From positions 62,001 through 126,000 of the forward strand of contig JAFIEZ010000007.1 of NCBI GenBank assembly GCA_020832235.1: a DNA stretch of 64,000 nucleotides. Reading direction: 5' to 3'. The notes below the pieces were generated by a model. The model saw only the letters and a list, made by a program, of their open reading frames with translations, made no database searches and had not been told where the DNA came from. Both the position numbers and the translations under genes were made by a program. Below are positions 19,492-23,091 of this stretch, piece after piece (position 1 is the stretch's first letter; each line of letters begins with the position of its first letter). Source of the stretch: Bacteroidota bacterium (lineage in GTDB: Bacteria > Bacteroidota > Rhodothermia > Balneolales > HLUCCA01).

Positions 19492-21426
19492 TTAGTTGTT
19501 GTACAAGGAAAACGGATTCAGTGCAAGGTCCAGAAGCACCGCCATTTCCCTGCGCGTCACCGTCTGATTGCGAGTGTTGGCCGACCAGTGGGGCATGAAA
19601 CTTTGCGAGACGAACCAGGAGTTTGCCAGTGCGATAGCCTCTGTTCTACCTGTGCGGTCGGATTCGGCACCCGGCATACCCGACCACTCCCACAAGGCTC
19701 GTACGGCCAGCTGCTGATCTACCGGAAGATTAGATCGATCCATCGCACCCAGTCGATGAGGATGACCCTTACCAGCCAGGCGGTTGTCGATGGCGGCCAG
19801 TTCAACACGGTCTACATTGTTATCGGGATAAAACCAGGTACGGTTTGCCCAGGCCACAGGCTGACCGGTTCCACGCATGATTCCGGCCAACCCAACACGC
19901 TGTATCGACTGAAAATCAGCCTCATACGGCCGCGTATCCACAAAGGGCATTAGCCAGGTATCGGCATCCAATAAGGTTTGCTGCAAGAGGCGAAGATCTA
20001 ACTCGCGTGGTTCCACGCCTTCACGGAGACTTAATGCAGCGGCGGCACCAGCTGCCTGACCCAGCAGCATAACTACAGGTTGTAAACGCGTTGCTCCGTT
20101 CACAATATGCGTTACCGAAATGCTTTTTTCGGCAACAATCAGCCCGTCGATATGTTGCGGAATCATGGTGTAGTACGAAACATTGTAGGAGGGAATGGGA
20201 GGTTTGTCTTCGGTTCGGGCATCTACCTCAAAACCTTCCGGTTTACGCTCATGGTGCAAGTCCAGTGGATAATCACCCACTGCGATGCCCGACATAAATA
20301 GTCCACCCGCATCTTCGCTGTACGGACTTATCATATCTTGCGTGCGCATGGTTCTCATACCAACTACTCTCCGACTTTCACGGATGTAGGGAATAAGTGG
20401 AAAGTGGTCTTCCGTGGGGAAAACATCTTCGGCGATGCCCATATTTCGGTACCCGCCCGCGGTTTGAACGTGATAAATCCATTTGAGGGTAAACTGCTTG
20501 GCTTCTTCCAGGGCAATTTGACGCTCTTCGTGGCTCATACTAAGGATGTCGATGAAGAAGTCGTTACCCATGATAGGCCAGTTAATCATGAAATGATTAT
20601 TCGGAAGCTCACCGTAATTAAACATGTACAGTTCTTCTCCGCTTTCAGGTCCGCAAGGTACTACTTCCCGCTCCGGGTCGCTGCAAAGCTCCCGGCAGGT
20701 GCAGTCGAATACAGAAGGGTCGTACCCCTCCGGTCTGTCGATAGTCATATCGGCATCGGGACCAAAATCGCGTAAAATAGCTACATAGGTGAGGTCTTGA
20801 ATCAGGCGATTTCCAGTTTCCGGTGCAAATTCATCACCGAAGTCGGCTCTTGTCTCCCATCCGTACCGGTATTCGGCACCAGATAAAGCCAGCGCGTCGC
20901 CATATTCATCAGAAGCGATGGTAACCGTGGCCTTAACTTCCAGCTTCCTGCCGTCTTCGCCCACAAAAATAGCACCGGTTACCCGCTCGCCCTCACGCAG
21001 AACCTCGGTTATTCTGTACCCATGGATACGGGTAATATTCAGGTGTTCGTCAATCATTCCGGCCAGAAAGCGTTCGCCTACATGGGGTTCGAAAAGGGTA
21101 TTGCTAACCCATCCGGTTTCAACGGCATCAGGACCACCATAATGACCATAGAGTAGTTCACGGAATTCGCCCCATAGTCCGGAGGGCATCATGTGGTTAC
21201 CATCAATGGCGGCTACACCTGCAGCGGTGAGCATTCCGCCGACCCAGGGTGTTTCTTCAATTACAATAACATCGGCACCCAGGCGGGCCGCTTGAATGGA
21301 GGCCATGGTACCGCTGGCACCGGCCCCGATAACCAGTACATCTGTTTTTAGTTGCTGATGCGTAGGACTGCAGCCCCAGAACCCGACTGCCATCAGTAGC
21401 ATGAATGCTGAAAAAGATAACTTCAT
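19492..21426 (-). CDS. Exported FAD-dependent oxidoreductase lipoprotein
   Basis: 644 residues. The N-terminus ends in VGFWGC, a lipobox-like site (Cys19), so the protein is probably exported and lipid-anchored. The FAD-binding Rossmann motif DVLVIGAGASGTMASIQAAR lies at about 29-48, with ADVIVIEE at the end of its second strand. The overall pattern (GGMLTAAGV, then CTCRELC and PCGP cysteines near 235-255, and a C-terminal S-layer-like extension with WANRTWFYPDN) fits the PF12831 FAD_oxidored family. These enzymes oxidise unidentified substrates and often accompany polysaccharide degradation genes; the nearby GH3 fits that only loosely. The function remains unassigned. Confidence 0.82.
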   Translation of the reverse strand: MKLSFSAFMLLMAVGFWGCSPTHQQLKTDVLVIGAGASGTMASIQAARLGADVIVIEETPWVGGMLTAAGVAAIDGNHMMPSGLWGEFRELLYGHYGGPDAVETGWVSNTLFEPHVGERFLAGMIDEHLNITRIHGYRITEVLREGERVTGAIFVGEDGRKLEVKATVTIASDEYGDALALSGAEYRYGWETRADFGDEFAPETGNRLIQDLTYVAILRDFGPDADMTIDRPEGYDPSVFDCTCRELCSDPEREVVPCGPESGEELYMFNYGELPNNHFMINWPIMGNDFFIDILSMSHEERQIALEEAKQFTLKWIYHVQTAGGYRNMGIAEDVFPTEDHFPLIPYIRESRRVVGMRTMRTQDMISPYSEDAGGLFMSGIAVGDYPLDLHHERKPEGFEVDARTEDKPPIPSYNVSYYTMIPQHIDGLIVAEKSISVTHIVNGATRLQPVVMLLGQAAGAAAALSLREGVEPRELDLRLLQQTLLDADTWLMPFVDTRPYEADFQSIQRVGLAGIMRGTGQPVAWANRTWFYPDNNVDRVELAAIDNRLAGKGHPHRLGAMDRSNLPVDQQLAVRALWEWSGMPGAESDRTGRTEAIALANSWFVSQSFMPHWSANTRNQTVTRREMAVLLDLALNPFSLYNN

Positions 21427-21498
21427 GAATATAACTCGTGTAGTGTTTTGGTTGGATGAGCTGATAAAATACCAAAAACACGGTTAAAATCTGACACC

Positions 21499-21530
21499 AG
21501 TCGGCACGCGAGTCATAACGCGTGCCGACT
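21499..21530. terminator. Perfect 12-bp hairpin between dapA and the FAD oxidoreductase
   Basis: AGTCGGCACGCG (21499-21510) and CGCGTGCCGACT (21519-21530) form a perfect 12-bp stem with an 8-nt loop. It sits in the 5' leader of the oxidoreductase gene and downstream of dapA. It has no T tract; it may end or attenuate dapA transcription, or regulate the next gene. Confidence 0.5.
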
Positions 21531-21645
21531 TCCGGGTGGTGTCTGTGGAGCTCATTATAGGTCTCTCTCAACCACGAACCTATGAATAGATTTTTTTTCA
21601 AACCCGCATCGCTTTTCACACAATACGGGCCTTATCAGAATAACT

Positions 21646-21719: not shown

Positions 21720-22622
21720 TCATGCCACGTGGGCCACATCAACGCATTTATGATACCAGTCGTTGATGCGCTGCGAAGCACGTTTGAGGCGGTCGGTATG
21801 TTGCAAATCATCCGCATCCAGCGGGAGTCGAACATCTTTGCAGTCGATGTACCCTTCCATTTCGAGCAGTGCCTTTGCAGGAACCGGATTAGACGCAATA
21901 AATAGGGCATTGCTGGCATCCTGCCACATGGCTACTTCTTCGCAAGTAAGGGCACGTTCCAGCGCCATACGGGTGTAAAGTCGCGTGGCTTCGGGCCATA
22001 CGTTGGATGCAACCGAAACAACGCCGGAGCAACCCAAAGCAGCAAAATCCCACATCATGGCGTCGTCTCCACTAAAGACAGGAGCACCGAGTCCGGCACC
22101 GACGTATTTCGGGAAATCATTTACCGATCCGCTGGCTTCTTTAATTGACCAGAAATTCGGGTGATCTCGCAGCGCTGTTATAACTTCGGGCAAAAGCGGT
22201 GTTCCCGCCCTGGATGGAATGTTATAGAGCATACACGGACGTTCTACGGCATCCATCAAACGCTTGAACCAGCCAATCTGGCCTTGAACTCCGGGTTTTG
22301 CATAAATCGGAGTTACCATGAGATAGGCATCAACCCGACGGGTTTCCAGCCAGGCGAGCCATTCCAGCGTTTCATGAAGGCCATAGCCTCCAACCCCGAC
22401 CATAACCGGTACATCGAGGTTCAAATTACAGGTGAAATCAATGATTTCACGTCTCTCGGCAGCAGTAAGGTTCAAACTTTCTCCGGTACTGCCAAGAATT
22501 ACGATGCCGTTACCGGCACGCTCCTGCCTGCGAAGCAGGGTTTCCAGGTTGTCAAAGTGTATCGATCCGGAAGGCAGCATGGGGGTAACCATGGCCGTCC
22601 ATACGATGGTATTATCAATCAT
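21720..22622 (-). CDS. dapA: 4-hydroxy-tetrahydrodipicolinate synthase
   Basis: 300 residues, the normal length. It condenses pyruvate with aspartate semialdehyde in the first committed step of lysine and diaminopimelate synthesis. Family marks are GSTGES near residue 45 (the usual GTTGES with one Ser), YNIPSR, the Schiff-base lysine in SIKEASG (Lys161) and NPVPAKALL near the C-terminus. Related lyases of the same fold (N-acetylneuraminate lyase, KDG aldolase) share these motifs, but the lysine riboswitch in the leader settles the role. The start at 22622 has no Shine-Dalgarno sequence. The aspartate semialdehyde it needs is also on the thrA pathway at 43.5 kb. Confidence 0.95.
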   Translation of the reverse strand: MIDNTIVWTAMVTPMLPSGSIHFDNLETLLRRQERAGNGIVILGSTGESLNLTAAERREIIDFTCNLNLDVPVMVGVGGYGLHETLEWLAWLETRRVDAYLMVTPIYAKPGVQGQIGWFKRLMDAVERPCMLYNIPSRAGTPLLPEVITALRDHPNFWSIKEASGSVNDFPKYVGAGLGAPVFSGDDAMMWDFAALGCSGVVSVASNVWPEATRLYTRMALERALTCEEVAMWQDASNALFIASNPVPAKALLEMEGYIDCKDVRLPLDADDLQHTDRLKRASQRINDWYHKCVDVAHVA

Positions 22623-22662
22623 TATATCTGAGTCTAAGGGTGAATTACATTGCTGTCACCCG

Positions 22663-22781
22663 GATGCTGCATAGAAGGGCATTGCGTTATTACCGCATGA
22701 GGCCATCTCTGAAGTCCGGTTGTAAGCGGGAATCCACCTTCAGAGGATGTATGCGGTAAGTGAAACTACGCAAGCAGCATC
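22663..22781 (-). other. Large nested hairpin between lysine riboswitch and dapA
   Basis: Four arm pairs nest one inside another: 22774-22781 with 22663-22670 (8 bp), 22768-22773 with 22682-22687 (6 bp), 22751-22759 with 22690-22698 (9 bp) and 22738-22745 with 22707-22714 (8 bp), in total 31 perfect base pairs over 119 nt. It begins two bases after the riboswitch P1 helix. A small further hairpin (GGGTGA/TCACCC, 22638-22661) lies between it and the dapA start. No T tract is present, so it is not a classical terminator. It may be the expression platform or an inserted palindromic element. Confidence 0.8.
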
Positions 22782-22782
22782 A

Positions 22783-22960
22783 CCTGGAGCGCTCCACACA
22801 ACCCATTCCCATGGGTTATATGACAGTAGACGGGATTCAGCCCGGACTACCAACCACGTAGGCTTCCGACACCTAAGTGATTTCGGCAAAACGTCCCATC
22901 GGTTGTCGTTAGCGGTTTCGGTACCTTCTACAACTTACCTGACGTTTGCACCTCTTCAGG
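22783..22960 (-). promoter_or_regulatory. Lysine riboswitch (L box) controlling dapA
   Basis: Read on the minus strand, the conserved core elements occur in order: AGAGGTGC-type start (GAAGAGGTGC), P2 arms AAACGTC/GACGTTT, TGCCGAAAT junction, a P3 hairpin with TAGG/CCTA, a P4 hairpin with CGGG(CTGAAT)CCCG closing on CTACTGTC, a P5 hairpin AACCCA/TGGGTT and the final TGGAGCGCT. P1 is short (CCTG with CAGG). The element starts at the predicted transcription start and precedes dapA, the expected target. Lysine binding should lower dapA expression. Confidence 0.9.
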
Positions 22961-22966
22961 AATACG

Positions 22967-22997
22967 AAAATATACTAAACCAATTTTAAGTCACAAA
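22967..22997 (-). promoter_or_regulatory. Bacteroidota-type promoter of the riboswitch-dapA transcript
   Basis: On the minus strand TTTG (22994-22997) is followed by exactly 19 bp and then TATATTTT (22967-22974), one base from the TAnnTTTG consensus. The predicted start of transcription coincides with the first base of riboswitch helix P1 near 22960. Confidence 0.7.
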
Positions 22998-23091
22998 GTA
23001 AAAATCTTGCACCTGCGGGCAGATGGTATAAAAATCAGGCGGTTACGGCGAAATACATAACTGGAAATCACCCTGAAACCTAAGGTATTCA

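Follow-up and report, generated by a model that had tools for sequence, protein, structure and literature searches.

A lysine riboswitch behind a predicted Bacteroidota-type promoter upstream of dapA in a member of the Balneolales

A survey of 2785 genomes in 2017 found the lysine riboswitch mainly in Firmicutes and Gammaproteobacteria, with a few species in other phyla (PMC5584792). A first-pass annotation placed such an element on the minus strand of a Balneolales genome, directly upstream of a dapA-family gene, which raises the questions of whether this RNA is a true member of the class, where its transcript starts, and how it could govern the gene that follows. The stretch of DNA analysed, 64,000 nucleotides at full length, is referred to here as the window. 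Its host belongs on the Bacteroidota side and may be a member of the Cyclonatronaceae.

A comparison of the whole 64-kb window with Rfam returned two matches, one a tRNA and the other RF00168, the lysine riboswitch (L box or LYS element). The latter lies at 22779-22964 on the minus strand and covers model positions 1-182 of 182 with 82.1 bits (E 6.1e-20), so that it is full length and exceeds the gathering score of 30 bits; it is also the only RF00168 match in the genome. In the alignment, the window sequence follows the conserved Rfam consensus blocks with few exceptions. The aptamer and the strand of its closing helix that matters below are as follows.

22779-22964, minus strand: lysine riboswitch aptamer with helices P1-P5 (RF00168 match and covariation in 19 aptamers)
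22783-22787, minus strand: CCAGG, the 3' strand of P1, whose last three bases, AGG, are common to the anti-P1 hairpin (RF00168 alignment and folds)

Nineteen aptamers from the same order were also aligned and folded with RNAalifold, without the Rfam model. The helices of the lysine aptamer were recovered, with two-sided compensated changes in 31 of 49 pairs, a count matched in none of 500 shuffles, and 95.5% of cells paired, compared to 80.1% in shuffles and 34–51% when one strand was slid. The loop-loop kissing contact that joins P2 to P3 (L2-L3), formed by CCGA with UCGG in the window, covaries across genomes, and its total of 83 Watson-Crick pairs was attained in none of 1000 re-pairings between genomes. 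The window RNA is a genuine lysine riboswitch of the RF00168 class, and its sequence predicts that it binds lysine. The aptamer proposed on the minus strand in the first-pass annotation is thus supported by both a significant model match and independent covariation, and the span given for it, 22783-22997, is essentially right, covering the aptamer plus the promoter. A search of 22600-22800 against Rfam gave no match up to E 10, and hence no second known riboswitch in the leader. The leader was also considered as a mobile repeat, a reading ruled out by its single copy in the genome.

Directly upstream of the aptamer is a sequence resembling the Bacteroidota-type promoter TTTG-N19-TAnnTTTG.

22994-22997, minus strand: TTTG, predicted -33 element (sequence and conserved position in relatives)
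22967-22974, minus strand: TATATTTT, predicted -7 element, 19 nt past TTTG, consensus TAnnTTTG (sequence and conserved position in relatives)

The site agrees with the consensus at nine of ten specified positions, the mismatch lying in TATATTTT, so the earlier description of the promoter as exact was overstated; the exact consensus, ten of ten, occurs in a congeneric genome (G394, below). The motif alone was rejected as evidence for a promoter, since one-mismatch sites are not enriched in the window (seven seen, 5.4 expected). Because the lone match is non-significant, support for the promoter comes from its conserved position in relatives: the best-scoring site lies 8–10 nt before the P1 core GAAGAGG in all 14 aptamers of the order that are single or the first of a pair, which bears out the claim of a Bacteroidota-type promoter directly before the aptamer. 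Among second aptamers of tandem pairs, a promoter occurs at that distance in only one of six, as expected if both tandem aptamers share one RNA. As the -7 box has been mapped at -12 to -5 in Flavobacterium (PMC9723704), transcription is predicted to start at approximately 22962, two bases ahead of the first P1 base at 22960.

The gene that follows, with its start 156 nt downstream of the aptamer, is well defined.

21720-22622, minus strand: dapA, 4-hydroxy-tetrahydrodipicolinate synthase (DHDPS), 300 aa (TIGR00674 and PDB DHDPS matches)

DapA scores 257 bits against TIGR00674, above the equivalog cut-off of 206.15, and its scores with other models of the family, including that for N-acetylneuraminate lyase, fall far short of their cut-offs. 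In the PDB it aligns best to DHDPS structures (E 2.9e-39), with the active-site Tyr, Arg, and Lys aligned (YNIPSRAG and IKEASG, compared to YNVPGRTG and IKDATG of solved DHDPS). TIGR00674 and PF00701 each match this gene alone, making it the only DHDPS-family gene in the genome. The protein family and the spacing therefore confirm an aptamer in front of dapA. The riboswitch had been said to fix the role of the gene as lysine synthesis; it supports that role rather than fixing it, because DapA also supplies diaminopimelate for the cell wall, and stronger arguments are the TIGR00674 score, the status as sole DHDPS-family gene, and the riboswitch-dapB-dapA order in relatives. Searches by peptide pattern confirmed no relatives of this dapA in the contig collection, and the plasmid collection held only distant homologues with less than 60% identity.

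RF00168 matches occur in 12 of 394 genomes sampled across the phylum, including other families, and in 15 of 245 genomes of the class, all of them within this order, where they amount to 15 of 129 genomes; none of the matches listed comes from the large family f3. The first-pass annotation considered an L box beside a Bacteroidota promoter noteworthy. The combination is real, but given these counts it is not unusual within the order, and other families of the phylum carry the aptamer too. In the open-licence papers searched, we found no report of a Balneolales lysine riboswitch. In most relatives whose loci were read, the aptamer is followed by dapB and then dapA, while in the genus of the window (the window's own genome, G000, and Balneolales bacterium PBR18_bin42, G394) dapA alone follows. 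The dapB of G000 is unlinked, on another contig (G000:C2:140253-141026; L060 10253-11026), and differs in type from the dapB genes in the riboswitch operons of relatives; no dapB was detectable in G223, G394, or G395. An additional insert is common in the terminal part of P2 in relatives and is lacking in this genus.

Two families showed further arrangements. Tandem lysine aptamers are found in five relatives (G452, G454, G460, G462, and G470). In family f56 they precede dapB-dapA (L053 1501-2353, L055 878-1707, L052 887-1707, L054 1200-1703, and L056 1177-2000) and have a Bacteroidota-type promoter before the first aptamer only; G463 seems to contain a cut-off first copy as well. Between the tandem aptamers is a nested stem element with an invariant GCUUUGAGGGGAGCU, seen in five genomes (sites include L053 2022-2036, L055 1183-1197, L052 1197-1211, and L051 1204-1218), which had no Rfam match at E 5 in two loci and none in viral contigs. 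In family f39 (L005-L008) the riboswitch also precedes dapB-dapA, and a hairpin followed by a T run stands before the gene, so transcription attenuation looks likely there.

How the aptamer could communicate with dapA was examined in the leaders of three congeneric species: G000, G394, and Bacteroidetes bacterium HLUCCA01 (G223). Approximately 45 nt past P1 are nearly invariant among them and cover a hairpin whose first three bases, in all three, are the AGG that ends the P1 3' strand. The structures predicted downstream of the aptamer are listed here.

22758-22785, minus strand: anti-P1 hairpin, AGGUGA-U-GCUGC-UUGC-GUAGU-U-UCACUU (variable only in its loop among three congeneric species)
22663-22781, minus strand: alternative long rod (folds)
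22781-22774 with 22670-22663, minus strand: rod outer stem, GAUGCUGC with GCAGCAUC (folds; in G000 and G223)
22759-22751 with 22698-22690, minus strand: rod stem, UUACCGCAU with AUGCGGUAA (folds)
22745-22738 with 22714-22707, minus strand: rod stem, CUCUGAAG with CUUCAGAG (folds)
22638-22661, minus strand: small hairpin GGGUGA...UCACCC directly before the start codon (in G000 and G394)

When P1 is imposed in the folds, the base of the anti-P1 hairpin falls from 0.36 to 0.04 in G000, from 0.93 to 0.21 in G223, and from 0.77 to 0.21 in G394, and the rod of G000, in which GAUGCUGC pairs with GCAGCAUC, increases from 0.48 to 0.81. The UUACCGC/GCGGUAA and inner hairpin sequences of the rod occur in all three leaders. 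As a comparison of leader sequences did not find the outer strand of the rod in G394, we propose the hairpin alone as a general anti-P1 element. Simple masking of the start codon was considered and rejected, as the openness of the start region in G000 hardly moves between the forced states (0.68 and 0.64). A Rho site deduced from an excess of C over G gave a weak signal, uneven across the leaders, and was not used.

Based on these observations, the best explanation of the locus, which we hold with high confidence, is that an RF00168-class lysine riboswitch exerts OFF control of dapA in cis. Transcription would begin near 22962 from the Bacteroidota-type sigma-A promoter, and the RNA would fold into the five-helix lysine aptamer. 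Plentiful lysine would stabilise P1, which would take CAGG (22786-22783) from the conserved anti-P1 hairpin just downstream, and dapA expression would then fall. A terminator scan found no intrinsic terminator between the aptamer and dapA, its sole match lying upstream of the promoter, and no Shine-Dalgarno sequence precedes dapA, an absence that is usual here, as an SD-like motif occurs in only six of 33 long ORFs of the window. OFF polarity is the expected response, and in a leader of this kind the output is more likely to run through Rho-dependent termination, RNA decay, or translation start than through intrinsic attenuation.

In the sister genome G223, which is 98% complete in 20 contigs, the promoter, the leader, and an 86.2-bit aptamer are retained between syntenic flanking genes. 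The locus (L021 9780-10140, G223:C7) is syntenic to 22660-23006 of the window. However, dapA is absent from it, no DHDPS-family gene was found genome-wide with TIGR00674 or PF00701, dapB was not found with either of two queries, and pairwise alignment gave no convincing dapA remnant, whereas lysA is present. Only four of 84 good genomes of the order are missing dapA. An assembly error may lie behind the absence of both genes. Loss of the lysine pathway is plausible in this ecology, given that an isolate of the Balneolota, Cyclonatronum proteinivorum, is a predicted lysine auxotroph (PMC6243061). Private changes per 184 nt of aptamer number seven in G223, eight in G000, and 18 in G394. In G223 the flanking genes have 166 private changes in 1918 nt and 175 in 1911 nt, and the aptamers of G000 and G223 have both changed proportionally less than the flanking genes (101–224 changes per ~1915 nt). 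The G223 aptamer, with its conserved core intact and no excess of changes, thus has no sign of decay, indicating either that the gene was lost recently or that the RNA retains some function, in which case control of dapA is not the sole factor preserving the switch. The next gene in the same direction in G223 encodes an FAD oxidoreductase, ~475 nt past the aptamer. It is conceivable, if unlikely, that the G223 RNA has outlived its gene under selection and acts either on this FAD-oxidoreductase gene or as a free-standing regulatory RNA.

The same genome provides the argument for reading the aptamer of the whole genus as a relic that folds but no longer governs a gene, with G223 as the end stage, since there the aptamer and leader have been kept where neither a DHDPS-family gene nor a detectable dapB is left. 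We regard this as very improbable, as the slower change of the G000 and G223 aptamers relative to the flanking genes and their intact core speak against it, and as the leader past P1 is conserved, whereas drift would be expected in one no longer used. Intrinsic attenuation of transcription on the model of lysC in Firmicutes, in which lysine favours a terminator hairpin before dapA, has a precedent in several f39 loci (for example L005-L008), where a hairpin and T run lie between aptamer and gene. It is nevertheless quite unlikely for the window: in addition to the empty terminator scan, no hairpin with a U run occurs between aptamer and gene in the leaders of G000, G223, and G394.

Some riboswitch classes include variants with changed ligands, and a covariance score alone cannot give ligand specificity, so an altered pocket within an RF00168-like fold could in principle sense a ligand other than lysine. 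This is scarcely credible here, as the RNA departs from the conserved Rfam blocks in only a few places and the targets of regulation are dapA or dapB-dapA. The riboswitch exerting OFF control of dapA in response to lysine thus remains the preferred reading of the locus.

A separate element was observed on the other side of dapA. A conserved stem at 21493-21542 on the minus strand, ~70 nt upstream of the gene for the FAD oxidoreductase (19492-21426), has the form GACACCA-(CCCGGAA)-GTCGGCACGCG...CGCGTGCCGAC-TGGTGTC. Compensatory changes are seen in both G223 and G394, and the fold z-scores are -4.7, -3.5, and -3.4. The stem had no meaningful Rfam match and is a candidate cis-regulatory RNA.

The window element shares with other RF00168 members the five-helix aptamer with its conserved junction and L2-L3 contact, its position in the 5' leader of a lysine-synthesis gene, and a P1 strand common to an alternative hairpin. 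It differs in its Balneolales host and Bacteroidota-type promoter, as well as in a platform that contains neither an intrinsic terminator nor a Shine-Dalgarno sequence. The lysC lysine riboswitch of Escherichia coli, which acts on translation and through RNase E (PMC5584792), likewise uses no intrinsic terminator and may serve as a candidate model for the output step; however, the window gene is dapA rather than lysC, and, as noted, lacks a Shine-Dalgarno sequence. A survey of double lysine riboswitches described 14 pairs, which seem to rely on terminator stems (PMC9481103). The tandem aptamers of the five relatives named above resemble these, but the related pairs stand behind one Bacteroidota-type promoter, and the window aptamer is single.

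The locus therefore adds a familiar device, a lysine riboswitch served by its own type of promoter, to the Balneolales, a group that is poorly documented. The clade as a whole offers a series comprising riboswitch-dapB-dapA, riboswitch-dapA, a riboswitch with neither gene, and tandem aptamers. With it one can study for how long a riboswitch outlasts its gene, and by what means a lysine switch operates when intrinsic terminator and Shine-Dalgarno sequence are both absent.
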